A stretch of DNA of 28,032 nt from a virus. This document shows, one piece after another, positions 10,589-26,558 of the stretch (its first letter is position 1; every line of letters begins with the position of its first letter). The DNA lies in IMG/VR virus record IMGVR_UViG_3300017737_000063, positions 1 to 28,032 of that record. The stretch is one strand, 5' to 3'. The notes under the pieces were generated by a model that had not been told where the DNA came from, searched no databases, and saw nothing but the letters and a program-made list of their open reading frames with translations. The position numbers were made by a program, and so were the translations under genes.

Positions 10589-10590
10589 AT

Positions 10591-11280
10591 TTATAAAGTT
10601 GCTAGTCTATTGTTTACATTAGTTGTAAGTGCTGTACTTTCAGAACTAAAAATTGCTATTTCATACATAGTACCATCAAAAGCGTTTGTTTTAGGGTTTC
10701 TAACTCCTATTGCATCAATGTCTGCTGTTCCTGTTAGTGTTGCTGATATGTTTTGGTCTACTCCATTATGCCATAACCCCATATTATTTAAAGCGTCTCT
10801 AGTTACTACAATATAACCATCACCAAAAGTTCCTGAAGCAAGAGGAAGATTTACAACCTCAGTTGAACTTGTTTTAACTCTTAGATTGGTTGATGAAGTA
10901 ATTTTAAACATTTCGTTAGCATCAGTATTATCTGCTATTAAAACGTTATTAAATGCTTCAATATGACATTTTATACCAACAGTAAAAGCTCCTGAAATAG
11001 TAATTTGAACAGTTGTTTGTAAATGGTCATTAATTCCGTCAAAGGTAATACCTGTGCCTGCTCCTGAATTTTTTAATGGTTGTTCACTAGTATTTCCTTG
11101 TACCATATCGTAGCTATTAGCACTATCATTCCAAGCACTAACTAGATTTGTAGAAGAGTCAAAAGTAATATCAGTGTCGTTTTGATACCAAGCAACAACC
11201 GAACCTTCAGAATTAGGTGTCCAACCTGCTGAAGAAGTCTTTACATTATTTAAGCTCAATCCTAATTTTAGTGCTAACAT
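10591..11280 (-). CDS. LamG / concanavalin-like structural protein
   Basis: The product starts with a short hydrophobic leader (MLALKLGLSLNN). After it comes WTPNSEGSVVAWYQNDTDI, then a beta-rich chain with GITFDGINDHLQTT, LWHNGVD and FDGTMYEIAIFS, the last being typical of LamG/concanavalin A-like domains. These bind sugars or decorate surfaces. In phages similar proteins are small virion components, either head fibres or tail appendages. It lies 2 bases upstream of the portal gene in transcription order, within the head region, so a head-decorating role is possible. Host binding cannot be excluded. Confidence 0.65.
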   Translation of the reverse strand: MLALKLGLSLNNVKTSSAGWTPNSEGSVVAWYQNDTDITFDSSTNLVSAWNDSANSYDMVQGNTSEQPLKNSGAGTGITFDGINDHLQTTVQITISGAFTVGIKCHIEAFNNVLIADNTDANEMFKITSSTNLRVKTSSTEVVNLPLASGTFGDGYIVVTRDALNNMGLWHNGVDQNISATLTGTADIDAIGVRNPKTNAFDGTMYEIAIFSSESTALTTNVNNRLATL

Positions 11281-11283
11281 ATT

Positions 11284-11559
11284 TTATGTAGTTGGTCCTT
11301 CATCATAACCTATTCCAATACCGCTAGTCAGGGTAATTGCAGTTATGTTCATAAACAAAGTTGTTCCCGCAGGTAAAGTAGTTTGTAAGGCAGTTTCTCC
11401 TGTTGCGTCTGCTGCTGCTATTGAAGCTACTACACTTTCCACAGGGAAATAAACACAATACCAATCTTTTGAAGTCTGTGCTGCTGTTGTAAATACTACT
11501 GTGCTACCATTTTTACCTAGTTGCTCTGATAATAATTGTTGTACATTTTCTATTGCCAT
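11284..11559 (-). CDS. Small structural protein, 91 aa
   Basis: This beta-rich, Thr/Ala-rich protein begins with a helix (IENVQQLLSEQLGKN), then has SKDWYCVYFPVESVVASIA and ends with FMNITAITLTSGIGIGYDEG. The last part looks like a strand that often ends head decoration or fibre subunits. It follows the 160-aa gene by 11 bases with a strongly A-rich leader before ATG, suggesting high translation. It lies among virion genes, so a minor capsid decoration protein is the best guess. Confidence 0.6.
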   Translation of the reverse strand: MAIENVQQLLSEQLGKNGSTVVFTTAAQTSKDWYCVYFPVESVVASIAAADATGETALQTTLPAGTTLFMNITAITLTSGIGIGYDEGPTT

Positions 11560-11570
11560 TTTTTTTTATT

Positions 11571-12053
11571 TTATTGTCCGTAATATATATAATTTGTTCC
11601 ACTTGGCTCTTGCCTTTGCGTATATTGAACTTGCTGAGTTCCATCTTTTTCTGTTATATTCATCTTACCTTTAGTTACAAGTCCTTGAACTACTCCTTTG
11701 TCGTTAGCAACAGGTGTTAAAACATCATTTTCATTTACAGGTGCATTTCCTGCACTTACTGTTACTGTTCCTATCCAACTAACTTCAAAAATTTCATATT
11801 TCCAATAACCTGCGGGCAATAGTTTTGTTTTTCCCGTGTAAACATCAGGTGTTAAATTGTAAGTCATAACAATTTTTGTAAATCTGTCTTTAATAGTTTC
11901 AGTAGAACCGTAAGCATATTGAACTGACTTATCTAAGTCATTTGTGAATTTAACTAAGTGCCTTATTTGAGTAGAAGCTACAGAAGTATCTATACGATTG
12001 TCCTCAGTTTGTACATATATACTAAACGCTGTTTCTGTTATTGCTTGTATCAT
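11571..12053 (-). CDS. Probable virion structural protein, 160 aa
   Basis: A beta-rich protein without Cys, having TETAFSIYVQTEDNRI near the start, KIVMTYNLTPDVYTGKTKLL in the middle and QQVQYTQRQEPSGTNYIYYG at the end. Its composition fits a phage virion subunit. It is the first gene after an intrinsic terminator (12114-12142) and has the AT-rich motif at 12067-12084 just upstream, so it may start its own transcription unit with the smaller virion genes and portal. No family is recognised; a minor capsid or head-tail protein is likely. Confidence 0.6.
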   Translation of the reverse strand: MIQAITETAFSIYVQTEDNRIDTSVASTQIRHLVKFTNDLDKSVQYAYGSTETIKDRFTKIVMTYNLTPDVYTGKTKLLPAGYWKYEIFEVSWIGTVTVSAGNAPVNENDVLTPVANDKGVVQGLVTKGKMNITEKDGTQQVQYTQRQEPSGTNYIYYGQ

Positions 12054-12066
12054 AGTTAGTTTGTCT

Positions 12067-12084
12067 GTTATATAATAGAAATAA
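12067..12084 (-). promoter_or_regulatory. AT-rich leader motif, copy 3 (candidate late promoter)
   Basis: Minus strand TTATTTCTATTATATAAC. Together with adjacent bases it shares 19 identical bases with the copy upstream of the tail chaperone. It sits between an intrinsic terminator and the 160-aa gene, where a new transcript is expected to begin. The alternative is a translation enhancer. Confidence 0.5.
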
Positions 12085-12113
12085 GTTGAATTTATTTGTA
12101 TTCAGTTAGCAAT

Positions 12114-12142
12114 AAAAAGAAAAAGGTGAACCGAAGTCCACC
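12114..12142 (-). terminator. Intrinsic terminator after the tail tube gene
   Basis: On the minus strand GGTGGAC and GTTCACC pair over 7 positions (one G-U) around a TTCG tetraloop closed by C-G, a very stable loop. TTTTTCTTTTT follows at once. On the plus strand no T run follows, so it ends leftward transcription only. It lies 27 bases below the tail tube stop. Confidence 0.85.
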
Positions 12143-12169
12143 CTAATCAAGAAATATATAAGAAAACTA

Positions 12170-12751
12170 CTAAGATGTAACTATTGTTCCCATTGTAAAT
12201 GCTGCATTGTCAAACGGGTTTGTAGTGTAATCTGCTACCATTGGAAACGGTTCTGTTTCCATTCCATCAAATGTAAGAGTATATCCGTTCTTATCTCCCC
12301 AAGCAGCACCTGTGTCCATAGTACCTGCATTTAATTCCATTCCATTAACTCTACCTAAACAGATGATAACGTCGTGTCCGTTAGCTAATTGTTGGTTTAA
12401 TTGAGCAAAGATAACAACCTTAGTTGCTCCTAACAATTTAATTTGATTTTGGTCTTCTTTTGTAAGTCTGTTGAATAATACTTGAGCTGTTGGTGTGTAA
12501 TAGATTGTTCCATTATCTCTACTTCCAACAATTGTATCTGTTACAGAAGCTACACCTAAAGGCATAGAATATCTGTAAAGAACATTAGAACCCATTTCAA
12601 TGTCAGTAACTTCTCCTGCTGCTTCAACTATTCCTGTTCCGTCAATTGGTGCTGTAAATTGGTCGTAAACTCCGAAATAAATAAATTTTACTCCTCCACT
12701 GATACGATTACAGTCGAGTCCCCTACCTTTTGTTAGTGCTGTACAAGCCAT
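12170..12751 (-). CDS. Major tail tube protein (probable)
   Basis: The 193-residue protein starts MACTALTKGRGLDCNRISGG, a pattern (MAC...TKGR...C...SGG) I recall from abundant tail or structural proteins of Bacteroidota phages. The rest is beta-rich with EAAGEVTDIEMGSNVLYRYS and GYTLTFDGMETEPFP, as in tail tube subunits. A strong A-rich leader, a hairpin just upstream and a terminator just downstream mark it as a highly expressed unit next to the major capsid gene. No sheath gene is seen, so a non-contractile tail fits. A head protein is the alternative. Confidence 0.65.
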   Translation of the reverse strand: MACTALTKGRGLDCNRISGGVKFIYFGVYDQFTAPIDGTGIVEAAGEVTDIEMGSNVLYRYSMPLGVASVTDTIVGSRDNGTIYYTPTAQVLFNRLTKEDQNQIKLLGATKVVIFAQLNQQLANGHDVIICLGRVNGMELNAGTMDTGAAWGDKNGYTLTFDGMETEPFPMVADYTTNPFDNAAFTMGTIVTS

Positions 12752-12774
12752 TTTATTTTGTTTTTTAGGTTAAG

Positions 12775-12797
12775 GGAGGAAGGGTTTTACCCCCTCC
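12775..12797. other. GC-rich hairpin between capsid and tail tube genes
   Basis: GGAGG and GGG pair with CCC and CCTCC around TTTTA with a 2-base bulge, an 8-bp GC stem in an AT-rich gap (12752-12816). No T run follows on the minus strand, so it is not a normal terminator. It may protect the 3' end of capsid mRNA or mark a processing point. Confidence 0.5.
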
Positions 12798-12816
12798 TTC
12801 CGTATTATTTATTTTA

Positions 12817-13722
12817 TTATGATTGTCTTACGATATCAGCTCCTGTTCCTGTTTGAACACCTGCTGAGTAACGAGCAACTAATCTCATATTATCAGAACC
12901 TGTAAACGCCATATCGATTAAATCTATACGAGTTTTATCGCTTAGCAAATCAGTCCCAAAAAATAAATTAGATTTTTGTGCTATCACTAATTCGTTTTCG
13001 TTCATTCCATTACAAACAGCGATTTTGTAGCCTTCAAACATTGGTACATAATCTCCATTCATATTGTAAGCATTAACATATCCTAAAGTAGATACTGCTG
13101 AAATGTAGTATTGGTAAGTTCTTTGACTCATATAAATATGTAAGTCTTCTTTTCCTAAAACTGCACTAGGTATTGAAGCAACTGCTCCTTGTAATTCTGC
13201 AATGATTGTAGCTGCTGTATAAGCTCCTGCTGCTGCATCTTGAACAACTGTTGCATCAACTAAAGGTAATAAAAGACCTGTACCTGCTCCTAAGAAACCA
13301 TTGAATTTCCCTGCTACAGCAGTTCCACCCCATATTGAATTTTCTGTTGCTTCTGCTATAATTTCTCCCATATAAGAGATAACATAGTCATCAAAAGATG
13401 CAGGTGGTGGTGCTCCTGCTCCTGCTCTCATTTGTAGAGCCTCCCAAGAGTCTAAAAGTGTAGCCTTGCATAATTCAAGATTAACTTGTAGGTTCTTAGG
13501 TTCTAATACTTTTTCTGTTAAAGCTAGAGTACCTGCACTAGTGAAGTCGCACGTAGCATCTGCAACTGAATTTACAGTATTATTCATAGCCTGTATATTA
13601 GACTTATATTTGATATTTTCTATCAATGTTAAGTAGTCTAACGAGTTTGATGCTTTTAAAGCTGCTGAGATATAAAATCCTGCTGCTTTTCCCGCAAAGT
13701 TTGATGTTGTAGTAAACGCCAT
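12817..13722 (-). CDS. Major capsid protein
   Basis: A 301-residue protein directly downstream of protease and scaffold genes in transcription order, the classic HK97-fold location. It has an N-terminal arm, a helix-rich P-domain-like section with SFDDYVISYMGEIIAEATEN and IWGGTAVAGKFNGF, an Ala-rich spine helix region and a beta-rich end (FFGTDLLSDKTRIDLIDMAF, NMRLVARYSAGVQ) typical of the A-domain. Many copies would form the icosahedral head. A long A-rich leader (AAAAAAAAACAAAAAA) precedes the ATG, which fits strong translation without Shine-Dalgarno. It is short for HK97-type capsids but usual for small phages. Confidence 0.85.
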   Translation of the reverse strand: MAFTTTSNFAGKAAGFYISAALKASNSLDYLTLIENIKYKSNIQAMNNTVNSVADATCDFTSAGTLALTEKVLEPKNLQVNLELCKATLLDSWEALQMRAGAGAPPPASFDDYVISYMGEIIAEATENSIWGGTAVAGKFNGFLGAGTGLLLPLVDATVVQDAAAGAYTAATIIAELQGAVASIPSAVLGKEDLHIYMSQRTYQYYISAVSTLGYVNAYNMNGDYVPMFEGYKIAVCNGMNENELVIAQKSNLFFGTDLLSDKTRIDLIDMAFTGSDNMRLVARYSAGVQTGTGADIVRQS

Positions 13723-13746
13723 TTTTTTGTTTTTTTTTAATTAATA

Positions 13747-14451
13747 TTAGTTATTTAAATCGTGTAAAAATTTCTCTCTTCTTGTCATTCTGCTGTATTC
13801 TGCTCTTGATACAGGTTTTCTGTCAGAACTGAACTTATTAGTATCTAAAGGAGCTGATGCAGGTTGTGCTGCTAATTCAGTCTTTAGTCTTTCGTTTTCT
13901 TCTTTTAACTTAGTCAATTCATCTTCTGCTGAGAACTCAACTACTTCTGTAGTTTTTATAGACTTAGGATTAGTAGAAGGTTCAACTGTTTCTTCAGACA
14001 TTTCTTCAACTTCATCATCACCTCCAACCTTAGCTTCTTTAAGTTTAGCTACAGCGATTTCTAAGTTCTCAATTCTTTTCTCCATACCTTTCCAATCTGC
14101 AACATCAGCTTCTTCGTCATAGTCTTCATCTTCTTCAGCTAATACTGTTTCTTCTGATAAATCTTCTTCTTCAACTGTATCTACTTCTTCAGTTTCTGAC
14201 TCAATAACTTCAGCAACAATACCTTCTTCTTCAACTCTAAAAGATACTCCTGTATCAGTCTTATAAGTTCCAACAGGTAATAAAATTGTAGTACCATCTT
14301 CAGTCAAAACTGAAATGTCCACTCCTGCTTCTAATTCATCAGCAGTTGAAACAAATATTGTTCCGTCTTCTGATTTTGCTTGCCACTCTAACTTAATTGT
14401 TTCTTCCTTGTTAAGACCTAGAGCTACTAAGATTTGTTCTTTAATGTCCAT
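13747..14451 (-). CDS. Scaffold protein
   Basis: A 234-residue, strongly acidic protein with long Glu/Asp runs in the middle (EETEEVDTVEEEDLSEE), a coiled coil with MEKRIENLEIAVAKLKEAK, a second coiled coil ELTKLKEENERLKTEL and a basic C-terminal tail with SRAEYSRMTRREKFLHDL. This layout is typical of phage capsid scaffolds, whose basic C-terminus touches capsid subunits during assembly. It lies between the protease and major capsid genes, as expected. The AT-rich motif at 14479-14497 is 28 bases before its start. Confidence 0.8.
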   Translation of the reverse strand: MDIKEQILVALGLNKEETIKLEWQAKSEDGTIFVSTADELEAGVDISVLTEDGTTILLPVGTYKTDTGVSFRVEEEGIVAEVIESETEEVDTVEEEDLSEETVLAEEDEDYDEEADVADWKGMEKRIENLEIAVAKLKEAKVGGDDEVEEMSEETVEPSTNPKSIKTTEVVEFSAEDELTKLKEENERLKTELAAQPASAPLDTNKFSSDRKPVSRAEYSRMTRREKFLHDLNN

Positions 14452-14478
14452 AATTTCTTTTTGATTTTAGTTGTGTTT

Positions 14479-14497
14479 GTAATATATAATAGATAAA
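14479..14497 (-). promoter_or_regulatory. AT-rich leader motif, copy 4 (candidate late promoter)
   Basis: Minus strand TTTATCTATTATATATTAC, differing from the other copies by one base in the TTTCTATTATATA core. It overlaps no gene and precedes the scaffold and capsid genes. Confidence 0.4.
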
Positions 14498-14500
14498 CTA

Positions 14501-15214
14501 TTACTTTGTTTGATTTTGCTTAATTATTTCATTTAACGCTGAAAGAATTTCCTCGTTTGTAGGAGCTTTTTCTGACATTTGTTCCATCTTGTCCGTAAAG
14601 TAGCCTTCAATTGATAATCCTTTTAATTCTCCTTCTTTGATTTTATTCCAAAGCTCATCATTCTCTATCTTCATTTTAACGAACCACGTGCCGTTAGGTA
14701 AGTCGTAACCGTACAACTTAGACTTATCCATATCACCTTCCTTAATCCAAGACTCAACCGTTAGAACGCCTGAAACTCTGTCTTGATGTTGGTATGTAGC
14801 TTTATGGTGATTGTTATGTTTCAAGTATAATTCAGAAGCTTTTCTAACTGTATCAGGACTAAAGTAAACATAGTAGTCACTGTCTGTATTAGGGTTATGT
14901 CTGAATATTTGCTTATTAGGAATAAGTGCAGGACTAACCAACATTCTTTTCTCCTCATCTACTTTAGCAAATGTAAGGTTATTCTTTTCTTTTCCAAAGT
15001 AAACAAAGTCCTGTTCTATTGCAGGTGAAGTTACTAAACTGATTGCGTCAATAGCTAGTTCTTCTGAGTCATCTGCTATAACTAATTCTACAATAGATGT
15101 AGTCTTTTCGTAATAGTCTTTATTGGCTTCTTCACATTCAGCTACTGAGTCATAAGTGCAACTTCCTGTTTTTCCCCATTTGTATTTTCCGTTTTCACAT
15201 TCTTCGCAAGGCAT
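14501..15214 (-). CDS. XkdF-like prohead protease
   Basis: After a Cys-rich N-terminus (CEEC, SCTYDSVAEC, residues 3-27) comes AIDAISLVTSPAIEQDFVYF (54-73), the start of the XkdF serine-protease domain seen in PBSX-like phages. Likely catalytic residues are His143 in YQHQDRVSG and Ser201 in LKGLSIEGYF, spaced as in prohead proteases. GTWFVKMKIENDELWNKIKE lies between. The enzyme would cut the scaffold and mature the head. It is directly upstream of the scaffold and capsid genes. The N-terminal Cys cluster may hold zinc and is not part of the classic protease. Confidence 0.8.
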   Translation of the reverse strand: MPCEECENGKYKWGKTGSCTYDSVAECEEANKDYYEKTTSIVELVIADDSEELAIDAISLVTSPAIEQDFVYFGKEKNNLTFAKVDEEKRMLVSPALIPNKQIFRHNPNTDSDYYVYFSPDTVRKASELYLKHNNHHKATYQHQDRVSGVLTVESWIKEGDMDKSKLYGYDLPNGTWFVKMKIENDELWNKIKEGELKGLSIEGYFTDKMEQMSEKAPTNEEILSALNEIIKQNQTK

Positions 15215-15231
15215 AGTATATAATATATTTA
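15215..15231 (-). promoter_or_regulatory. Diverged AT-rich leader motif (weak copy)
   Basis: Minus strand CTAAATATATTATATAC ends at the ATG of the protease gene. It shares ATTATATA with the other copies but not the TTTC part, so it could be chance in AT-rich DNA. Confidence 0.25.
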
Positions 15232-15249
15232 GTTAATTTTTATTTGATT

Positions 15250-16707
15250 TTAGATTGTAGCTCTACGTCTTATATTGGCTAATTGGTTTTGACTGTTTGT
15301 CATTTCATCAGTTACTACAAACGCTTTCATAGGTTCGGGTGCTACTCCTCCACTTAATTCAAAAGCTCCCGACATCATTTGTGGTGCAGGTGCTTGTGCA
15401 GTTGCTGTTGGTACAGATGGTGCAGTTGCTCCTCCTCCTCCTCCTCCACTTGCAATCTTAGCAATATTCATAGCAGAAAAAATACCTGCTGCACTTGCCA
15501 TAGCAATAGGATATGCACCTGCTGTTGCTGCTGTTAATGCTACATTTGCGTTGGCTGCTGTAAAAGCATTTTGAACACCCTGAACTCCTGAAATAGTAGC
15601 TTGTGCAATTGCTGCTGCTTTTCCAATAGCTGTTCCTTCTCCTGCAATATCCTTTATTACACCTAGACCTTGTGCTGCCATATCTTGTTTAAAGTTTCTA
15701 AGGTCTAATTCTAGTTTCTCTTTTTCTTCAGCAGCTTTTTTATCAGCAGCTATATTTGCTTCTCTACTTCTTTGTTGCTCTTTATTCCACTCATCATTAG
15801 CTTTGATTTTAGCTTCAAATTCAGCATCTATTCTTGCTTGTTCAGCGTCAAGTATGTCTTGTTTTTCTTTTGCTCTAGCTTTTTCTTCTGCTAATATTTC
15901 ACGCTCTAAACTATTAACTTCAGTAACTACTCTTCTTCTCATTTTAATAGAAGCAGTTTCTTTTTCAATTATTTCTGTTTTTAATCTTGCTAATTCAGCT
16001 TCATCTTCAACTAAATTTTCACTTAAAGCCATTTCTTCCTGCTGTATTGCCATTCTTTCTTTTGCTAAAGCAATTTCATCTTCTGTTGTTTTTGCTTCTA
16101 ATTCTAGTGCTTTTTTTAAGTTTTCTAATCTTTCTGCTGCTGATTTTGTTTCATCTTCTGCAATCAATCTAGCTTTTTCTATTTCTTGTCTAGTTTTAGC
16201 TTTCTGAACCATAAACTCATTATCAGCGTCTCTTAAAGCTTGAGTTCTTTTAGTAAGTTCAACCATAGCTGCAACTTCTTCTTTTATTTCTTCAGTAATT
16301 CCTGCAAAAGTACCTTTTAACGCTTCTCCTGCTTTTCTAAATTCGCCTGAGAACACATAGCTAATAGCTTCACCAACTTTACTAAGTCTATCTGTTAATA
16401 CATCTACAACAGCACCCATTGCAGTAAATGTTTGTGCTAGTTTGTCAGCACCTCTTTTAGTATTTGTAAAGTAAGATATTAATGAAGTAACAGCTATAAG
16501 TAAAGCACCAATTCCTGTAGACATTATACCTGCTCTAATAGTTGCAAATGAAGCTTTTGCAGTAGTTGCTACTGATTGAAAACCTGCCTTAACGCTATTT
16601 AAAGAAACGCCCATAACTTTAAATTCACCTGCTGCACTTTTTACATCCTTAGATACATCACCTATATTTGATTTTACTTCTGCTTCTATTACTATTTTAT
16701 CTGCCAT
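15250..16707 (-). CDS. Tape measure protein (short)
   Basis: A 485-residue protein with an N-terminal hydrophobic segment (about 55-82, including MSTGIGALLIAVTSLISYF), a long charged coiled coil rich in Ala, Glu and Lys (about 150-345), an Ala/Gly hydrophobic region (about 350-425), a Gly run and a Pro/Ala linker. This is the tape measure layout: the helix spans the tail lumen and sets its length, and hydrophobic parts may enter the host membrane. By the rule of 1.5 angstrom per residue, the tail would be at most about 70 nm. It is unusual that the tail chaperone is about 7 kb away rather than just upstream. Confidence 0.8.
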   Translation of the reverse strand: MADKIVIEAEVKSNIGDVSKDVKSAAGEFKVMGVSLNSVKAGFQSVATTAKASFATIRAGIMSTGIGALLIAVTSLISYFTNTKRGADKLAQTFTAMGAVVDVLTDRLSKVGEAISYVFSGEFRKAGEALKGTFAGITEEIKEEVAAMVELTKRTQALRDADNEFMVQKAKTRQEIEKARLIAEDETKSAAERLENLKKALELEAKTTEDEIALAKERMAIQQEEMALSENLVEDEAELARLKTEIIEKETASIKMRRRVVTEVNSLEREILAEEKARAKEKQDILDAEQARIDAEFEAKIKANDEWNKEQQRSREANIAADKKAAEEKEKLELDLRNFKQDMAAQGLGVIKDIAGEGTAIGKAAAIAQATISGVQGVQNAFTAANANVALTAATAGAYPIAMASAAGIFSAMNIAKIASGGGGGGATAPSVPTATAQAPAPQMMSGAFELSGGVAPEPMKAFVVTDEMTNSQNQLANIRRRATI

Positions 16708-16717
16708 AATTTTATTT

Positions 16718-17566
16718 TTAAAGTGCTACTCCTGTTTTAATTTGTGTAAACCTTATATTACTACACCATTCTATTGTCATATTTGTTTCTCCTCTTACAT
16801 CTATAATAAAGTTAGTTCCATCTACTGTTGCTGTTGGTCTCCAATTGGTATGACTTCCTGAACCTTTTATTGTATCTCTTTCTCTTTCTATACTTAGTGT
16901 TCCTGACTTATTTATTACTACACCTCTTTCTACCCAACTAAGAAAATCACCTGCTGCTCCTGACGCTGAAGTTCCTCCAACCCTTACAGCTAATACATCA
17001 GCGTGAAAATACATAGCAGTATTATCAGGAATAGTAAAGTAATTTCCTGATATATTGTTTAAGTAACTATCAACTGTTCCTCCTGCTGTTGTTTGTGTTC
17101 CATAGATTAAATGAATACTTTGTCTTTCAGCTAAATTATCAGTTGAAGCGTTACCCCCTAATATTATTGAATTATCGGCTGTAGCTTCTCCTAAAGTGCC
17201 ATAGACATTAGCATTGTTTACTCCGTTTGCTATTTCATTTTGATTTCCTACTATAATGTTGTTTCTTGATAATCCTTTTACAGTATTATTTTCACCTATT
17301 ATTTGTGTGTTATTTGTTCCTGTTTCTGTTGTGTTTCCTGCTCCCTGTATTTTATTACTTTCATTACTAAAGCTGCTGTTAAGATTTGCGTTAAATCTAA
17401 AAATAGAGCAAGTTCCTGAAGCCTTATCATAAGTATATCCGTAAGCTTCACATTGTTCTTGATTTGGTCTTATGTCGTCCCTACCATCAGTAAAGGTTAC
17501 AATTCCTAAACTTGAAGTAGATAAAGGTTTTACGTCAAAACCTGATAAATATGGTATTGTTGCCAT
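16718..17566 (-). CDS. Beta-repeat tail fibre-like protein
   Basis: The 282-residue protein has a short N-terminal part with a Cys pair (EQCEAYGYTYDKASGTC, about 38-54). A run of Asn-rich beta repeats follows at about 75-125 (GTNNTQIIGENNTVKGLSR, NNIIVGNQNEIANGVNN, NSIILGGN). They repeat Asn-x2-Ile-x-Gly-x2-Asn at about 14-residue spacing, like the beta rolls of trimeric YadA-type adhesins. The C-terminal half is a beta-rich domain. It probably forms a trimeric fibre or spike at the tail tip and is a candidate host-binding protein. It overlaps the 908-residue tail gene (TAATG). Confidence 0.6.
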   Translation of the reverse strand: MATIPYLSGFDVKPLSTSSLGIVTFTDGRDDIRPNQEQCEAYGYTYDKASGTCSIFRFNANLNSSFSNESNKIQGAGNTTETGTNNTQIIGENNTVKGLSRNNIIVGNQNEIANGVNNANVYGTLGEATADNSIILGGNASTDNLAERQSIHLIYGTQTTAGGTVDSYLNNISGNYFTIPDNTAMYFHADVLAVRVGGTSASGAAGDFLSWVERGVVINKSGTLSIERERDTIKGSGSHTNWRPTATVDGTNFIIDVRGETNMTIEWCSNIRFTQIKTGVAL

Positions 17567-20292
17567 TATGGTATTAGTATAAATTCAACTGTTGCTAAGT
17601 CGTTTGGTTTGTAGTCTATCTTGTTCACTCTGAAAGTTCTATTTTTAATAAACACAGTATCATACATTCTAAAAGTGTTAATATCTGAAGGACTTAAGTT
17701 TACTTTTAAATTCATTATTCTTGTGTCAGGGTTGTACAATTCGTTGTAATAAGGCAGCCAATACAAATTAAATAGATTATTATTTGCAGGAGTTCCAAGT
17801 CCACCTACTAACTGACATTCTCCAAAGTGAAAGTCGCTAGTGCCTAATACTGTAGGAATATTTGTTAAATGACTAAATTGTAAAAATTCGTCTTCAAAAG
17901 CGTTTCCTGGTACACCATTTTGTGCAGGAACATTGTATGTGCAACTTGTTAAAGTTTGAGGACCGCTAGGTGAATGGTAGTTACGATACATAATTCTAGG
18001 ACTATTTTCAAAACCTTCTGAAGTGTCATCTTGTGGGTTGTAAGAGTAAACAGCAGGTGTTATAAAATCAGGGTATTGGTCAGATAAAGGCTTTACAACT
18101 GTTGCTGCAAAAGGTTCTGCAACTATTTCATTTTCTCCTGCTAAAATTGTAAAACCTGAAGCGTCATACTTCTTGCTGCCGTATAAATGACCTACTGAGT
18201 TTTTATAATTCATAAAAGCATAGTCATCTTCATCTTCTACAAACTTAAATATAGTTTTTTTATTCAACTCGGTTAAAGGTGTTAATTTCATCTCTGAAAT
18301 ATCTATTTTTTCTGTCCAATCGTGTGCAATACCTCTACTTGCTAATGTCATATCAGATGTTGAACCACTATTAGTATTATTGATAAATACATCTCCATAG
18401 GGTTCTATTAAGATATTATTAGGGTTATTTTCATCAGGCAAAGTAATCAAGTTAAACATAGTCAAAAGACCTTTTAAGAAATCCCATTGTCCTAATTCAC
18501 CTCTTAGCGTTTGCAATAATACATTAGTCGTTGTACTTAAAACACTTCTATTAACAACTATATCAGCAGTAATTGCAGGTGGGCTTCCATATACATCATA
18601 ATTTTGAACAATACCATTAGTTGTATCGCTAGAAAACTGAGCTTCTAAAGTATCTCCTGTTTGTAATATTGGTGAAATAGTACCACCAAATGCAAATACT
18701 GTTCCTGATGAGCCACCTGATTGCATTGGAGTTAAGTCTATTTCTTCTTCAAATCCTGTTGCAGCTCTTGTTAAGAGCCATCTAGTACTATATTGAGAGT
18801 TAGTAATAGCTACACGCATTTCATAATAATAAGTAATATTGTATTGAACATTAGTAGTAGTTGCAGTAAATTTATTAGTTGTAGTATTATAATCTACTTG
18901 CGATAAACTACTACTTAGCAAAACCAAATTCCCAAAACTTCCATTCGGGGCATAATTAGTAGCCATATCTATGTAGTAGTTACCATTTTTAGTAGTATTA
19001 GAAGTTACAGGGGCATTGTCAGAACCCCAATTGAAGTCCATAAACAACCTGTCAAAATCTGCTGTATTAAAGAACGCACTTTCGTAAGTAAAATCTGTTG
19101 CAGCAAAAATTCTATCTATTAAATATTTAATATTTATAAAAGGTCTAAATGCACTTTCTAAATTAGGAAGAACAGGGTTTCCGTTACTATCTAATGTAAA
19201 TTGATGACTCCAATCTACAAAAGGATATCTTAAGACACCTGTAACTGAAGTTCCTGCTGTTCCTGCAAATGTGCCTACAGGTAAAGGGTTAGTTAGTCCT
19301 AATGTTCCCTGCCAACTGTTTTTAATTTCTGTATAATTATAATTATGCTTCAATTCAGAAAAATCTAAATCTGAGAATGTTCTTTCGTCTAACACATCAG
19401 CTAGAGCAATAACTTCAGAATAAAGATTAACATTGTAGCTTATTTCTCCTTCTTTGTTTTGTATGTCTATAAGTCTTAAATATCCTTCAAACAATAAAAA
19501 ACCATCTTGCTTTAATATTGCTTTAGTTTTCTTATAAGGATTAAAGTTAAGCCCTGTGTCAGTTCTTGTTACTTCAAATATATTGTCAAAGATTTGATTG
19601 TTTCTTTTTGTTGCAGGAAGATTAAAAGCTTTTGAATATGACTGCACTTTCTCAGCTACATTTTTAAAGTCATCTACACTAAGACTTAAAGGTATATCTT
19701 CATCTTCATAAAGGTCACAAATGACTTGACCATTACTTAAATCAGTAAAGACTCCGCTTGGTGTTGACGCAGAAGCACTACAAGATACGCTTTCTATTAT
19801 AGCTGTAGAGTTTACACTATAAATAACTATCACGTCAGCAGTTGAATAAGCGTTAAACGATATGGTCTGTAAGCCCGTACCTGTTATTGTATGAGTACTT
19901 TTTAATACATTTCCTTTGTATTGATATACTTTAAGATTTGTTGAGTTAGATGTTATGTTTAGCGTTAAATCGTATGTAGCTCCAAAAGTAAGACTTGATA
20001 ATCTTTGCACAATACCTTCATCAGGACTAAAGTTTATTGCTCCTGAACTTTCATCAACCTCACTTGCAACACCACTAAAACGATACCAAGTGTTTATTGT
20101 AAAAATAGAGAACCCAAGGAAAGTGTAGGTATTTACAAATGTTTGTGGTAAAGCTCCTGATATACTTTGAGTTGAAGAAGAAGTATTAACAGTATTGAAA
20201 TCAATACCATCAACAACTAATTCACTAGCTAGGGAACTTAAAGGTCCTGAACCATCAAAATATTGTGGAAATACTATTAGTTGTACGCTCAT
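17566..20292 (-). CDS. Large tail / baseplate protein, 908 aa
   Basis: The longest protein in the window. Residues 1-180 are a Ser/Thr-rich beta region with FTINTWYRFSGVASEVDESS that looks like a carbohydrate-binding-type jelly roll. Then VICDLYEDEDIPLSLSVDDF (about 190-209) opens a conserved-looking core, and the C-terminal end (DIDTFRMYDTVFI-like strands, NRTFRVNKIDYKPNDLATVE) is beta-rich. I have seen the core motif in tail proteins of Bacteroidota phages. It is likely the distal tail hub or a minor tail protein that contacts the host. It overlaps both neighbours as TAATG and sits between two other tail genes. Confidence 0.65.
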   Translation of the reverse strand: MSVQLIVFPQYFDGSGPLSSLASELVVDGIDFNTVNTSSSTQSISGALPQTFVNTYTFLGFSIFTINTWYRFSGVASEVDESSGAINFSPDEGIVQRLSSLTFGATYDLTLNITSNSTNLKVYQYKGNVLKSTHTITGTGLQTISFNAYSTADVIVIYSVNSTAIIESVSCSASASTPSGVFTDLSNGQVICDLYEDEDIPLSLSVDDFKNVAEKVQSYSKAFNLPATKRNNQIFDNIFEVTRTDTGLNFNPYKKTKAILKQDGFLLFEGYLRLIDIQNKEGEISYNVNLYSEVIALADVLDERTFSDLDFSELKHNYNYTEIKNSWQGTLGLTNPLPVGTFAGTAGTSVTGVLRYPFVDWSHQFTLDSNGNPVLPNLESAFRPFINIKYLIDRIFAATDFTYESAFFNTADFDRLFMDFNWGSDNAPVTSNTTKNGNYYIDMATNYAPNGSFGNLVLLSSSLSQVDYNTTTNKFTATTTNVQYNITYYYEMRVAITNSQYSTRWLLTRAATGFEEEIDLTPMQSGGSSGTVFAFGGTISPILQTGDTLEAQFSSDTTNGIVQNYDVYGSPPAITADIVVNRSVLSTTTNVLLQTLRGELGQWDFLKGLLTMFNLITLPDENNPNNILIEPYGDVFINNTNSGSTSDMTLASRGIAHDWTEKIDISEMKLTPLTELNKKTIFKFVEDEDDYAFMNYKNSVGHLYGSKKYDASGFTILAGENEIVAEPFAATVVKPLSDQYPDFITPAVYSYNPQDDTSEGFENSPRIMYRNYHSPSGPQTLTSCTYNVPAQNGVPGNAFEDEFLQFSHLTNIPTVLGTSDFHFGECQLVGGLGTPANNNLFNLYWLPYYNELYNPDTRIMNLKVNLSPSDINTFRMYDTVFIKNRTFRVNKIDYKPNDLATVEFILIP

Positions 20293-21674
20293 TATATAGA
20301 CTGTGTTCTTAGGGTTTTACTCTTTTCTACTTCAAAAGTGTATTGAATTAGTTTATCGTTAGCTACTGTCTTTCTTGTAAAGCTAGAAGTTGTAAGTCTT
20401 GTAGGTATTACATATTGATTAAGTGCTGAGAAAGTTCCGTCTGTTTGGTAGCCGTCTAATATATAAACTTCAGGACTGTTTATTAATTCTTCAAACATTA
20501 CATTTTCACTTTCACTTACAAAGTCTGTATTCATTTGTATTTTTTCAGTAGCGTTTACTCTAAAGGCTTTCTTACCACCTTTGTAACTGTCTACTCTATA
20601 AGCTGCTTCATTCCAAGTTCCTGCTAATTGTTCGTATGTAGAACCTTTAGTTGATATGCTTCTTACTGACTTCTTAGTGAATGTGTAGTAATCCCAAGCA
20701 CCCCACTGATTTAACCAACAAAGTCTAATAGACTCAAAACCTTTAGTGTCAGGACAATTAACATTAATAGTGTATGTTTTAGAAATTGCAGTATTACTTA
20801 CATTAAAAGCCCTTAATTCTATTGAACCACCACTTATTTGGTCTACAGGTGAAACTAAAGCATTAAAAGTAGAACTCCAATTCTGTAAATTAGCAGGAAA
20901 ACAACCTAAGTACAAAAGTCTATTTGATATTTGTGAACCAAGATTAGCATAAGCTCCATTTGCAAAATCCTTATCAACATCTTCTGTTCCTATTTGACTT
21001 CCTGAGCTATCTCGATATATTAGTTGTATGTATTCTAAGTTGTCGTTAGGTGCTAAAAAAGCAACTGTTCCGTAATCTTCTAAATTAGCATACTGAGTCT
21101 TAGGAGCGTTAGTTAAAAACCTGTCTGATGATGAAGATAAATTAAAAATACCCAAGCTATAACCAAAGTCATTGTTGAATATATCAAGTTCATCAGTGTA
21201 TTTTAAGTACCCATTGAAAATCTGATAATCTACTGAATTTTGTGGAGTGTCTATTTGGGTGTCTCCGTTTGCGTCAATATATTGAGTTTTAAACTGAATA
21301 GTTAGCCATCTAGCACCTTTTTTATTTATTGAAAATTTATCTATTAAATGAATAGGGTGTGGAGTGTCATCAGTTGTTAAAGTTCCTTTATACTCACTAT
21401 TGTTTGCAGCCATATTATCAGCACTAACATAATTTTCAACTACTTGTCTAAAATCAAATATACCTACTCCTGCATTGTTTGGAGTTGTTTTAAAAGTAGC
21501 TGTTGGTACAGTAGTTGTAGTTGGTGAAATTGCTGTTGTATCGCTTATATAAACATCAGCAATGAATCTTACATTTGTTTGAGTAGCTACTATTGTATTG
21601 TTAGATACTACAAAAATTACTTCTTGTCCTACAGGAAGTTGAGGGTATAAAGGTTCTTGTTCTATTGTTGTCAT
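20292..21674 (-). CDS. Minor tail / baseplate protein, 460 aa
   Basis: A beta-rich protein with low Cys content. Notable pieces are GIFDFRQVVENYVSADNMA (about 70-88), RWLTIQFKTQYIDANGD and FESIRLCWLNQWGAWDYYTF in the second half. The WLNxWGxWDYYTF pattern recurs in my memory of tail proteins from flavobacterial phages, usually next to a large hub protein, as here. It starts 1 base after the stop of the gp10-like gene and overlaps the 908-residue gene by TAATG, so the two products may form one complex. The exact role in the tail tip is unknown. Confidence 0.6.
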   Translation of the reverse strand: MTTIEQEPLYPQLPVGQEVIFVVSNNTIVATQTNVRFIADVYISDTTAISPTTTTVPTATFKTTPNNAGVGIFDFRQVVENYVSADNMAANNSEYKGTLTTDDTPHPIHLIDKFSINKKGARWLTIQFKTQYIDANGDTQIDTPQNSVDYQIFNGYLKYTDELDIFNNDFGYSLGIFNLSSSSDRFLTNAPKTQYANLEDYGTVAFLAPNDNLEYIQLIYRDSSGSQIGTEDVDKDFANGAYANLGSQISNRLLYLGCFPANLQNWSSTFNALVSPVDQISGGSIELRAFNVSNTAISKTYTINVNCPDTKGFESIRLCWLNQWGAWDYYTFTKKSVRSISTKGSTYEQLAGTWNEAAYRVDSYKGGKKAFRVNATEKIQMNTDFVSESENVMFEELINSPEVYILDGYQTDGTFSALNQYVIPTRLTTSSFTRKTVANDKLIQYTFEVEKSKTLRTQSI

Positions 21675-22199
21675 TTATTTTACTGTTGTTAATCCATTAA
21701 TGATATCATCTTTTACTGCTCCTAACATTTCTTTTCCAAACTGCTTTAAACCTAACATCAAAGGCTTCTGAAAGAAACTTATTCCTTGTATTCCTTTTCT
21801 CTTAATGCTTCTAGCTATTAAAAAAGATATGCTTTTTCTTGACATAAATCTTCCTTTTTCATCTCTTGGAGCTATTCCTTTTTTAACTATCCACTTGTCA
21901 AGAACCCTGCTAGGTGGTTGCTTTGAAGTGTACTTATAAGGACTTGTAATTTTCCTGCCCTTATAATCTTTGAAACTTCTTCTAACATCTGTTCCTGAAA
22001 CTCCCTTATCTACAAAAGTACCATAGCTATCCATATAGAATTGAACGCTAAAACCTTCAGCAGAAGTAATTACTTTAAAGCTTAATGACTTTTCTAAATT
22101 AGTGCCACCACCTTTAGCTTTTTGTAAATTTCCTTTTGCTCTGTTTACTACTTGCTTACCAAAGCTATTAAGGTATCGTTCAAGTGCTTCTGTCTTCAT
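21675..22199 (-). CDS. HK97 gp10-like neck / tail completion protein
   Basis: Residues 1-60 read as a helix followed by beta strands with LEKSLSFKVITSAEGFSVQF, then DSYGTFVDKGVSGTDVRRSF (57-76), a pattern typical of HK97 gp10-type proteins in Bacteroidota phages. The rest is basic, with MSRKSISFLIARSIKRKGIQ and a last amphipathic helix. gp10-like proteins join tail to head at the neck. It overlaps the upstream structural gene by TAATG. Its high basic charge is normal for this family. Confidence 0.75.
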   Translation of the reverse strand: MKTEALERYLNSFGKQVVNRAKGNLQKAKGGGTNLEKSLSFKVITSAEGFSVQFYMDSYGTFVDKGVSGTDVRRSFKDYKGRKITSPYKYTSKQPPSRVLDKWIVKKGIAPRDEKGRFMSRKSISFLIARSIKRKGIQGISFFQKPLMLGLKQFGKEMLGAVKDDIINGLTTVK

Positions 22200-22648
22200 T
22201 ATACTAGACCTGCAAATATTTCTACTTGAACATCAGTTGTTGCTGAAGGTCTTACTTCTACAGTAACTAAATCTTGCAATGTAGGAAAAGCAGGACTTGC
22301 ATCTTCTTCACCAATTAATGCTTCTTCAGCTTGGAATAAGATATGAGAACCCCCTGCTCTTACAGTTACTTGATAGTTAGTTGCTGATGTTACAAAAGCT
22401 ACTTTCATATCTTGGTCTGTACTTAGGTTAGTTACTCTAAAGTATTTACAGTTCTCTACATCTAAAGCACCATCAGCTCCATAAGGAGTTGAATTAAATA
22501 CTGCTACTGTTGTAGTCTGTGAGTGAGTACAAGTTAATATTCTTTCAAATACATCTACTATACCTGTTGTTGTTAAAGTGTTTGTAGAACCTCTGACTGA
22601 GCCGTTAAGTACTACATTTTCTGTAATTGTTGTTGTTAAGTCTGCCAT
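22199..22648 (-). CDS. Probable virion structural protein, 149 aa
   Basis: A beta-rich, Thr/Val-rich protein with TTTITENVVLNGSVRGSTNT at the start, a central CKYFRVTNLSTDQDMKVAF and a repeated beta ending TDVQVEIFAGLV. It resembles small phage decoration or tail subunits in composition only; no family is recognised. A clear A-rich leader precedes ATG 22648, and the stop overlaps the gp10-like start, so it belongs to the neck/tail assembly block. Confidence 0.55.
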   Translation of the reverse strand: MADLTTTITENVVLNGSVRGSTNTLTTTGIVDVFERILTCTHSQTTTVAVFNSTPYGADGALDVENCKYFRVTNLSTDQDMKVAFVTSATNYQVTVRAGGSHILFQAEEALIGEEDASPAFPTLQDLVTVEVRPSATTDVQVEIFAGLV

Positions 22649-22649
22649 T

Positions 22650-23000
22650 TTATTTTTTATCTATTTGTTTAAGTTTATTTATTGCCCAATTTACACCTGA
22701 TGAACCTCCCCAAGCATCCCACATTATACCCCCACAACCTTCTGAGTAAGGAACGTCTTTATGTTGCTGATGTCTTTTAAATGATGCCATTCTTGCTATT
22801 GTATCTCTACTGATAGGTTTTCTGTCTGCTAGTTGTGCTGAACGAGTCCAACCAACCCTAGTTCCACAACTGCTTCCGTTTTCTTCCTTCCATTTTCTTG
22901 CTCTTTTAGCATTATTACTAGCTGCTTCAGGGTAGTCGCTGTAACTTTCAAGCTCTATGCTTATTGCTTCTAGTTTTTCTAATATGTCTTCGTACTTCAT
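22650..23000 (-). CDS. Head-associated domain protein with CGTxVGWxRA pattern, 116 aa
   Basis: The chain has an N-terminal helix (YEDILEKLEAISIELES), then SDYPEAASNNAKRARKWKEE, SSCGTRVGWTRSAQLADRKP, SRDTIARMASFKRHQQHK and GCGGIMWDAWGGSSGVNWA. I recall this block as part of larger head proteins in marine phages, often fused to an XkdF-like protease or portal. Here it stands alone, between the putative tail terminator and a structural gene, about 7.4 kb from the protease. Its Cys, His and Trp positions look conserved, but no activity is known to me. Confidence 0.6.
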   Translation of the reverse strand: MKYEDILEKLEAISIELESYSDYPEAASNNAKRARKWKEENGSSCGTRVGWTRSAQLADRKPISRDTIARMASFKRHQQHKDVPYSEGCGGIMWDAWGGSSGVNWAINKLKQIDKK

Positions 23001-23071
23001 AGCTTAATTGTTATTTTAAATTTCTTCCATCCTATTTGAACTATTAATCTTCCTATCTTAAACTTTAGCAT
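22997..23071 (-). CDS. Possible 24-residue basic peptide
   Basis: The frame starts at a TAATG overlap with the upstream stop and ends in an ATGA overlap with the 116-aa gene, exactly filling the 70-base gap. The product is short, basic and amphipathic (MLKFKIGRLIVQIGWKKFKI). Double coupling is the only real evidence. It may serve to carry ribosomes across the gap rather than make a working peptide. Confidence 0.4.
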   Translation of the reverse strand: MLKFKIGRLIVQIGWKKFKITIKL

Positions 23072-23616
23072 TAGTAACCTGCACCCCTAGTACCTACAGG
23101 AATATCACAAGTTTGAAAGTCATTCTGAACTAATACTCCTAAGTTAAATACATATCCACAACACAAATTATCAAAGCGTTCTTGAAACGGCTCAATAGTG
23201 AATTGGTCTTGTGTAAAATATATAGGATGATTAATATCATTGACACCTGCTAGTGATTGTCTTGAACTGTGTCTAAGCATACCTATAATATCTGTACATA
23301 TTGCTAAAGTCTGATTGAATACTTCTTGTTCATTGTTCTTAGTATTGACTAACTTAGTTAAAGACGCTTGTTGTGCAGTTTGCCAACTTGACTTTTCAGA
23401 AACCATATCCATAATAAATATTTGAAAGTTATATGTCAATTGACTATCACCTGTTGTTACTGATGTTGGGTTTACGTGCATAAGCGGAAATTTCTCCATA
23501 ACTTCAAGATTAAGGTCATATATATCTCCAACTGAAGTTGTGCTGATTTGGTCGTGATACTGACCTAACCTAAGTAAAGTGTTCACGACATTATTATAGC
23601 TTTTATTGTTTACCAT
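23071..23616 (-). CDS. Putative tail terminator / completion protein
   Basis: The 181-residue protein opens with SYNNVVNTLLRLGQYHDQIS and YDLNLEVMEKFPLMHVNPTS, then a strand-rich part with QLTYNFQIFIMDMVSEKSSW, a helix (EVFNQTLAICTDIIGMLRHS) and a closing beta segment. Helix, beta sheet, helix, and a size of 150-180 residues next to the tail chaperone fit a tail terminator, which caps the tail tube and joins it to the head. It starts 14 bases before the stop of the -1 frameshift extension. No catalytic motif is visible, so the role is inferred from position and fold pattern. Confidence 0.55.
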   Translation of the reverse strand: MVNNKSYNNVVNTLLRLGQYHDQISTTSVGDIYDLNLEVMEKFPLMHVNPTSVTTGDSQLTYNFQIFIMDMVSEKSSWQTAQQASLTKLVNTKNNEQEVFNQTLAICTDIIGMLRHSSRQSLAGVNDINHPIYFTQDQFTIEPFQERFDNLCCGYVFNLGVLVQNDFQTCDIPVGTRGAGY

Positions 23617-24381
23617 TTCTTTTAACTTTGTTTTGTGAGTTTAAGTCTGTTTCATAACTTAACCAAGTCAAGCACTCTAACAGTCCTAAATTCGTTATTC
23701 TTTCTAAGTTTACTATTTCACCATTTGTCAATCTATACATAACACCAAACCAACCCCACTTCTCTGCAAAGCTTTCAGAAGCTATTGCGTCTTCATTTCC
23801 TTCAGCTGCTCCATCAAATACAATGGCAAAATCTCTGACAACTCCTTCCCTAAAGTGTAAAAAAAAACCAATGCACTTTGCACTTGTTGAGCTGACATCT
23901 TTTTCATTTCTTCTGTCCTAAGCCGAATGTCTCCATCATAAGCATCAATAATATAAACATCATTCTTCTTTTCTTTTACAGGTCTATAAAGAACAGCCAT
24001 CACTTCAGGTAAGTGCTTTTCAATTCCACCCTTTATAAATGTTTCTAAGTCTGCATATTCACCTAATGTTATACTATCTAAATCAGGGTGAAAGCCGTAC
24101 TCAATACCATCTATTTCAATAATCCTTTTTAACTTTGTGTTTTGATTATTTTGTAATTCTGCAATTCTGCTCATTATTACAGCTACATCTGATAAAGCTA
24201 ATTCCTTTACTAACTGCTTAGGAATGTTAGATAAAGCTGTTATTGTTTCAGTTGCTTCTTTAGTCTTACTACCTGTTTCAAAGTCAATCAGTTGCAACCA
24301 TTTTTCAAGAGTTACATCTTCCCAACTATTAATAAGTTTGAACTCTTTTACCTTACCTTCTTTTTTAACTTTTACTTTCAT
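23603..24381 (-). CDS. Tail assembly chaperone, -1 frameshift product (gpGT-like, 259 aa)
   Basis: If ribosomes slip back one base at the T run (23859-23867), the product keeps residues 1-174 and gains 85 codons, stopping at TAA 23603-23605. The extension reads LHFREGVVRDFAIVFDGAAE, then SFAEKWGWFGVMYRLTNGEI and LGLLECLTWLSYETDL. It looks like a true protein segment, with an aromatic Trp-Gly-Trp core, a clear helix at the end and no ATG at its beginning. It overlaps the zero-frame end and continues across a gap of 165 bases that would otherwise be empty. The overlap with the next start is 14 bases. Confidence 0.75.
23782..24381 (-). CDS. Tail assembly chaperone, zero-frame product (gpG-like)
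   Basis: The 199-residue zero-frame protein begins with strands (MKVKVKKEGKVKEFKLINSW), a helical part with TLEKWLQLIDFETGSKTKEA and a central part with IDGIEYGFHPDLDSITLGEY. It has the size of tail assembly chaperones and sits one gene before a putative tail terminator. Near its end is GTT TTT TTT TAC (codon 172 on), a -1 frameshift site that leads to a longer product, as in lambda G/GT. Chaperones of this type hold the tape measure until tail tube subunits assemble. It starts only 32 bases after the terminase stop. Confidence 0.75.
   Translation of the reverse strand: MKVKVKKEGKVKEFKLINSWEDVTLEKWLQLIDFETGSKTKEATETITALSNIPKQLVKELALSDVAVIMSRIAELQNNQNTKLKRIIEIDGIEYGFHPDLDSITLGEYADLETFIKGGIEKHLPEVMAVLYRPVKEKKNDVYIIDAYDGDIRLRTEEMKKMSAQQVQSALVFFYTLGKELSEILPLYLMEQLKEMKTQ
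23860..23866 (-). other. Slippery site T TTT TTT for -1 frameshifting
   Basis: In the chaperone frame the codons GTT TTT TTT TAC contain the heptamer T TTT TTT within a run of nine T. A -1 slip changes the next codon from TAC to TTA. Transcript slippage on the T run is an alternative route to the same product. Confidence 0.75.
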
Positions 24382-24383
24382 CT

Positions 24384-24401
24384 GTTATATAATAGAAATT
24401 T
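24384..24401 (-). promoter_or_regulatory. AT-rich leader motif, copy 2 (candidate late promoter)
   Basis: Minus strand AAATTTCTATTATATAAC, ending 2 bases before the ATG of the tail chaperone. If TATTATA were a -10 box, the transcript would be nearly leaderless. A translation-enhancing leader is the alternative. Confidence 0.45.
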
Positions 24402-24413
24402 CTTGTTTTTAGT

Positions 24414-25610
24414 TTACTGCACATAATACTTACCTGCGTTAGGGTTATCTAAGTGATAAATAACATTATAACGAACCCCGTCAATTGCGTGGTTGTAGTT
24501 ATCTACATAAAGCTTAGAACCTTTGTCAGCGTATATGTAGTTGTTCAATTCTTTAGCTATGTTAGTGCTTTCAGGAGTTACAATTAATTCATAGTCTTGC
24601 ATACGAGTTATCCCGCTTTCAATAGTTCCTTTTTTTACAGGTTTAATATTAACCCCTAAGTGTCTAAGGTCTGCAATTAGTCTTGGTTCTGCTGAGTCAG
24701 CTATGATAAGTTTGTTGTCTACTTTGTCTAATATTATTTTAGCCAACTCATTTGACTTTAATCCGTTCTTATAGATATGTTCTTTTAAATATATCTTACG
24801 TTTCCTTTTATCAATAGCTACTTCAGTAAGACTATCAGGGTCTACACTAAAACCAAAGTCCATACCGCAAGAAGTCTGAAGTCCATCAGGATTAAATTCT
24901 CCTATTGACCAATTCTCAAATACAACTCCTTCTGCTTTGTCCAACCAACCTCCTAAGATTTTGTGCTGATACTTTTTAAAGTTTCTATGCTTTATAGTGT
25001 TAATACGCTCTAGGAAGCTCTGTGATAGATTATCTTCATTATCTAGGTATGTACTATGAATGTAGCATACATTGTCTCTAACGCCGTTAAAACCTGCTTC
25101 TACTCCTTTGTCCTCAAAAAACCTTTTGTATATCCAATGCTCTTTAGTTACAGGATTAAGTATAAGTATAATTCTATTCTGTATTTCTTTTTCTCTAATA
25201 CTTAAATCAATAGTATCAAATATATCCTCGTCTATTAATTCTTCTGCCTCGTCAAGCACCCAAGTGCTTATTCCTTGTAAAGATTTTAGACTTGCTGTTT
25301 GGTTTCCCGCTGATGTCTTAATACCTCTAAATAGAATGTCTGACTTGTTTCCTAAATTAACAACCTCTGCTTTATTTACACTAAAGATGTTTTCAAAGCC
25401 TAACAGACTAATCTTTTCTAAGAACTCAGGAATGATAGATAGGTGAGCCGATACCATTGTAAATCTTGTAAACAATACTCTTATGTTTTTAGACATAGTA
25501 AGTAAAGTCAAAAAGACTGTTACAGCAAAAGACTTTCCTGAACCCCTACCACCTGTAATAATAAAGTATCTAGCGTCAGAATTAAAAAGAGGGTTATATT
25601 TATTACTCAG
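24414..25610 (-). CDS. terL: Terminase large subunit, apparent CTG start
   Basis: Numbering from CTG 25610, the protein has Walker A GGRGSGKS (20-27), Walker B VLDEAEE (118-124), a coupling segment LILNPVT (about 150-156) and a nuclease domain with MDFGF (Asp252), LIIADSAEP (Asp305) and NHAIDGVRY (Asp377). It is a PBSX-type packaging motor: an ATPase that drives DNA into the head and a nuclease that cuts it. The first ATG (25496) and the first TTG (25511) both lie after Walker A, so they cannot be the true start. Upstream, a TAG at 25620-25622 limits the start to ATA or CTG codons. CTG 25610 gives a natural start (xSNKYNPLFNSDARYF) and overlaps the small-subunit stop by 8 bases. Confidence 0.9.
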   Translation of the reverse strand: MSNKYNPLFNSDARYFIITGGRGSGKSFAVTVFLTLLTMSKNIRVLFTRFTMVSAHLSIIPEFLEKISLLGFENIFSVNKAEVVNLGNKSDILFRGIKTSAGNQTASLKSLQGISTWVLDEAEELIDEDIFDTIDLSIREKEIQNRIILILNPVTKEHWIYKRFFEDKGVEAGFNGVRDNVCYIHSTYLDNEDNLSQSFLERINTIKHRNFKKYQHKILGGWLDKAEGVVFENWSIGEFNPDGLQTSCGMDFGFSVDPDSLTEVAIDKRKRKIYLKEHIYKNGLKSNELAKIILDKVDNKLIIADSAEPRLIADLRHLGVNIKPVKKGTIESGITRMQDYELIVTPESTNIAKELNNYIYADKGSKLYVDNYNHAIDGVRYNVIYHLDNPNAGKYYVQ

Positions 25611-26300: not shown

Positions 26301-26558
26301 TTAGTAGTCTTCATTTATTCCTCTTGTTCCTATTAGCTTTTCTTTTGCACTTGCCCAAAGTTTATCACCTCTTTTTTTTTTACTTAATGATGCTTCAGTT
26401 CTTTTAAGGCTAGGCATTCCGTCTGTTGGTTCGCTATCCATATACTTACCACAACTGCACTGAGCTTCTTTACATACCCACTTTTCATCTCTTAGGACTA
26501 TTGTAGCTTTGCCAACTTCTTTTTGTTCCTTACCGCATTCGCAAGTATATAGTGTCAT
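26301..26558 (-). CDS. Zinc-ribbon protein, 85 aa
   Basis: The protein begins MTLYTCECGKEQ (Cys6, Cys8) and continues with VCKEAQCSCGKYM (Cys29, 34, 36), a likely four- or five-Cys metal site. After GMPSLKRTEASLSKKKRGDK the rest is basic and helical. I associate the CSCGKYM...GMP pattern with small phage proteins of unknown function. It overlaps the methyltransferase stop by 4 bases (ATGA) and touches the NinB-like start. Nucleic-acid binding is the natural guess. Confidence 0.65.
   Translation of the reverse strand: MTLYTCECGKEQKEVGKATIVLRDEKWVCKEAQCSCGKYMDSEPTDGMPSLKRTEASLSKKKRGDKLWASAKEKLIGTRGINEDY

Follow-up and report, generated by a model that had tools for sequence, protein, structure and literature searches.

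The window is the whole 28,032-nucleotide stretch analyzed here, positions 1 to 28,032 of virus record IMGVR_UViG_3300017737_000063, which derives from an uncultured marine bacterial virus. Its minus strand carries a 199-residue open reading frame (23782..24381), the zero-frame gene or G form of a probable tail assembly chaperone, in which codons 172-175 read GTT TTT TTT TAC and hold a run of exactly nine Ts (23859..23867, minus strand; A9 on the plus strand) with the slippery heptamer T_TTT_TTT at 23860-23866. The -1 frame on this strand has no stop between 23918-23920 and the TAA at 23603-23605. The resulting extension, referred to as the T domain, comprises 85 codons plus TAA (23603..23860, minus strand), contains a KWGW motif, and would encode the protein LHFREG...GKQ; the G-T fusion would have 259 residues. 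Immediately 3' of the run, the end of the zero-frame gene and the start of the extension form a dual-coded stretch (23785..23858, minus strand). The extension then occupies a 165-bp gap (23617-23781) that would otherwise be empty, and its stop end overlaps the first 14 nt of the next gene, a conserved neighbor of 181 residues (23071..23616, minus strand; ATG at 23614-23616). No ATG, GTG, or TTG occurs in the extension ahead of the internal ATG in ...GVMYR, which comes after the KWGW motif. These results bear out the earlier note, which had described GTT TTT TTT TAC at codon 172 of the 199-residue gene, an open 85-codon -1 stretch giving a 259-residue fusion, the lack of a start codon at the beginning of that stretch, and the filling of the gap to the next gene.

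Examined in the window alone, a T9 run in a 199-codon gene is unremarkable, since its amino acids and codon usage predict 0.26 runs of nine or more; for the -1 stretch of 83 codons without a stop, dinucleotide shuffling gave a p value of 0.0003. An A10 run is also present on the sense strand of a small minus-strand gene (26301-26558) at 26372-26381, where it lies in codons for KKKR without a long alternative frame after it.

Retention of the T run and extension in relatives

In order to avoid selecting on the extension under test, relatives were also gathered by the G part alone or by its profile. Of the loci obtained in this way, 147/147 with the site in sequence kept a run of nine or more Ts, and 135/135 with enough sequence had a -1 extension of 80-88 residues. 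The unbiased sets as a whole comprised 256 distinct sites, which fall into 129 clusters when grouped at 90% identity of the extension. The run and the -1 frame were kept in 80/80 close relatives found using the extension, and the same -1 relation recurred in distant relatives, one set being led by the P12024L extension and a second by another branch. Across all sets together, 524 of the 526 loci carrying the extension had T8-T12; of the two exceptions, one is a contig cut at the site and one is probably a noisy assembly. T_TTT_TTN was present in the zero frame at every site, and T8 only was found in one freshwater branch and a few others. Relatives thus keep the run, a point that the earlier note had proposed to check, and neither an early stop in the -1 frame nor drift destroying the run while the frame decays, the outcomes it had set against its own claim, was seen in any relative with usable sequence. 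Because the hidden extension is conserved in relatives, which is the decisive evidence, it is judged from these sequence comparisons to be real and not a chance open frame. In-frame G-T fusions were absent from all fetched loci. Neither of two scans across bacterial and archaeal genomes turned up a relative, so that no bacterial host is assigned from them.

Several individual loci differed in run length. One branch (L096-L107, L110, and L112) has eight Ts (CTT TTT TTT ACT/ACA) and a longer zero-frame overlap. In a T8 copy, L418 (IMGVR_UViG_3300005239_001047), the zero-frame gene itself shifts frame close to the run, as though a T had dropped out, either through a sequencing error or because the homopolymer was truly shortened. 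Two plasmid-database records named Lysinibacillus pakistanensis (L391, CP045836.1) and Escherichia fergusonii (L392, NZ_CP040811.1) share the terminase and G/T segment of these phages, with broken genes and differing T-run lengths (T8/T7). Judging by their sequences, these two records look like noisy assemblies of one phage genome, and they were left out as such.

Selection on the extension

Substitutions that separate the extensions of close relatives fall almost exclusively at sites silent in the -1 frame. In the extension-only part, the ratio of nonsynonymous to synonymous change (N/S) relative to expectation was 0.056 in the -1 frame and 1.0 and 5.2 in the other two frames, the low value being biased by the choice of loci on the extension; the G-only sample was therefore added. 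Within the dual-coded stretch, the -1 frame was constrained (N/S 0.27) and the zero frame unconstrained (1.04). These ratios support purifying selection on the extension as a protein, in the -1 frame only. Since only the -1 frame is constrained in the overlap, the C-terminal end of the 199-residue form seems dispensable, and the part that is conserved is the hidden extension.

Gene neighborhood and probable function

The gene for the large terminase subunit, TerL (24414..25511, minus strand; Pfam Terminase_3, E 7e-29), lies directly upstream and served as a synteny anchor. Terminase was found upstream at 270/317 sites with enough flank, and gene 23071 downstream at 215/231, which makes TerL - G/T - gene 23071 a conserved gene order. 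A probable tape measure gene (15250..16707, minus strand; PHROG 3336 'tail length tape measure protein', E 3e-9) shares the strand and late cluster of the G/T gene, but the latter has an unusual place beside TerL and is separated from the tape measure gene by seven genes. This distance weakens the G/GT family label, not the mechanism. The order of structural genes at 8546-25511 of the window is unusual, namely terminase, G/T, tail genes, tape measure, protease, probable capsid protein, and portal. A DUF3721 match falls in the long C-terminal part of the portal protein.

The 199-residue gene matches PHROG 32199, of unknown function (E 5e-15). A profile search of the extension against phage proteins, as the earlier note had proposed, succeeded in finding PHROG 38404 (E 0.005 with the extension of the window, 6e-44 with the best-scoring member of the family), although no match named a function. 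Searches of Pfam, NCBIfam, PDB sequences, and PDB folds gave no usable relative, and function was named by no Pfam, NCBIfam, PDB, or annotated PHROG match. The G part was modeled by AlphaFold2 at pLDDT 88 and the extension at pLDDT 61, a low confidence. In Foldseek searches the G model matched about 40 viral proteins, nearly all uncharacterized, and, more weakly, predicted proteins named tail assembly chaperone (E 0.0029 and 0.2). Several single-chain viral proteins of 226-267 residues in BFVD matched the G model and the extension model alike, and on these predicted folds are best read as natural in-frame G-T fusions. Because of the gene layout, the conserved synteny, the weak predicted-fold matches, and the downstream tape measure gene, we infer that the G/T gene most plausibly encodes a tail assembly chaperone. 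The chaperone assignment of the earlier note is consequently retained on gene layout, synteny, and weak predicted-fold matches, but not on membership of a named sequence family.

Proposed origin of two products from one gene

From sequence and by analogy with lambda G/GT, it is very probable that one gene gives rise to two proteins, G and G-T, by slippage on T9 in a chaperone arrangement of that type. Standard decoding would yield the 199-residue G form, while slippage on the run at codons 172-175 would bring a fraction of products into the -1 frame, giving G-T, a 259-residue form that ends in a conserved domain, probably helical. The role of G would be to bind along the length of the tape measure protein and that of the T domain in G-T to bring in tail tube subunits, while the slip would determine how much G-T is made relative to G. 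A slip by RNA polymerase or by the ribosome would produce the same fusion protein. We infer the production of both proteins, the chaperone role, the partners, and the level at which slippage occurs. Of the lambda-style pair of chaperone forms originally suggested, the extension and the T run proved to be retained and under selection.

An IMG/VR scan anchored on the KWGW codons was used to compare run lengths. With T7 there were 12 matches, 0 of them in the family; with T8, 25/28 matches were family members; and with T9 there were at least 120 matches. The run is locked as a homopolymer, with nine Ts nearly always and seven never. In the common phase, position 8 of the run could change from T to C without altering the protein read in either frame (TTT to TTC; TTA/TTG to CTA/CTG), and the ribosomal heptamer T_TTT_TTC would stay intact. 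This silent change was found in 0/106 clusters versus approximately 20% expected from codon usage (P ~1e-10, assuming independent clusters, which they are not fully). Where the 5' T was lost through a changed upstream codon, nine Ts were kept through the next codon (3/3 versus 3/63 clusters, p = 0.0004). A first compensation test (p ~1e-9) was discarded, as its loci had been fetched by exact T8/T9 patterns that bias the result. The lack of T7 members, the absent silent T-to-C, and the compensated 5' loss suggest that selection maintains an uninterrupted run of about nine Ts. This constraint exceeds the ribosomal need, since a ribosomal -1 slip requires T_TTT_TTN only. No nested RNA structure above shuffled background was detected downstream of the run in 127 clusters (mean z -0.1), and nested structure in the downstream region of the window had a z of about +1. 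The homopolymer pattern and the undetected stem-loop are no less compatible with slippage of RNA polymerase than with ribosomal frameshifting, and on these sequence patterns the choice is nearly even, leaning somewhat to RNA polymerase.

Slippage of RNA polymerase on T9 would add one U (or drop two) in some transcripts, from which ordinary translation would give the fusion, and we regard the prospects of this mechanism as evenly balanced. The pure homopolymer is what it would call for: according to reviews, transcriptional slippage in bacteria takes place on runs of nine A or T (PMC5009743), and conserved cases have runs of eight or more (PMC3711429). One freshwater branch and a few other members with T8 only fit it less well, and characterized tail chaperones slip at the ribosome (PMC5009743). 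The wider proposal is that RNA polymerase slippage on T9, and not ribosomal frameshifting, sets the ratio of the two tail-chaperone forms in a large uncultured phage family with P12024L/S as its cultured members, and that all three phases of the run are used while its length is kept; it is offered tentatively, at a shade below even.

Ribosomal -1 frameshifting at U_UUU_UUU, by a tandem slip of tRNA-Phe as in lambda G/GT, is a serious contender for making the extension, though somewhat short of even. It is the documented mechanism for lambda GT (PMC5009743), and its heptamer T_TTT_TTN stands in the zero frame at every site. The hydrophobic residues at the fusion (V/L/I-F-F-L/F) would account for some of the run, and ribosomes may slip less readily on UUC than on UUU. 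This explanation is harder to reconcile with the lack of a T7 member and of a silent change at run position 8, with a length held at nine when the phase changes, and with the failure to detect nested downstream structure in the 127 clusters.

Re-initiation at a separate gene with its own start is improbable. It is the arrangement annotated in the cultured phages P12024L and P12024S (gp41 and gp39), whose ATG overlaps the upstream TAA (TAATG), but the first start codon in the window is behind the KWGW motif, and 79/124 clusters have no -1-frame start codon ahead of that motif; therefore, re-initiation at a usual start codon cannot supply the domain there. The residues directly after the run are also conserved in the alignment. 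That a sequencing or assembly error in the homopolymer split one ordinary gene is next to impossible: homopolymers are error-prone and the two plasmid-database records (T8/T7, broken genes) are seemingly from the same phage, but hundreds of independent contigs and the cultured P12024L/S all show this -1 relation, and the extension is under purifying selection, which refutes the reading.

Slippage on T9 would provide a probable function and a missing protein product for an abundant uncultured phage family, the two parts of which have so far had no assigned function or been overlooked by gene callers. Transcriptional slippage, if true, would represent a new variant of the two-form chaperone class. 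The strict conservation of T9 also poses a testable question, namely whether the chaperone ratio is set at transcription, as opposed to the standard ribosomal explanation.

Comparison with known systems

Lambda G/GT yields two forms from one gene via a -1 shift (Xu et al. 2004, as summarized in PMC5009743). The two-form chaperone arrangement is known from other phages, and the case of this family is unannotated until now. In common with lambda G/GT and related siphophage chaperones, the window locus has a probable -1 shift near the 3' end of the gene, a small C-terminal -1 extension, and a place in the late structural cluster. It differs from lambda in that no sequence similarity was detected, the gene adjoins terminase whereas that of lambda directly precedes the tape measure gene, the slippery site is a T8-T12 homopolymer rather than a mixed heptamer, and no nested downstream structure was detected.

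Transcriptional slippage on A or T runs in bacteria is described for Shigella mxiE and spa13, Thermus dnaX, and Citrobacter tssM1 (PMC5009743, PMC4256274). As in these genes, a pure homopolymer of about nine or more would lead to a second product and a stem-loop would not be needed; unlike them, bacterial genes with measured effects, the locus here belongs to a phage. The literature searched contained no phage tail chaperone using transcriptional slippage and no paper joining tail chaperone, frameshift, and flavobacterial phages.

The cultured Nonlabens (Persicivirga) phages P12024L and P12024S carry the homologous pairs gp40/gp41 and gp38/gp39, with approximately 32% identity over half the length of the G part and approximately 31% in the extension. 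In contrast to the window, each pair is annotated as two hypothetical genes, with the zero-frame stop overlapping an ATG. Like the window, both phages have a T9 run, the same -1 relation, and the same place after terminase.
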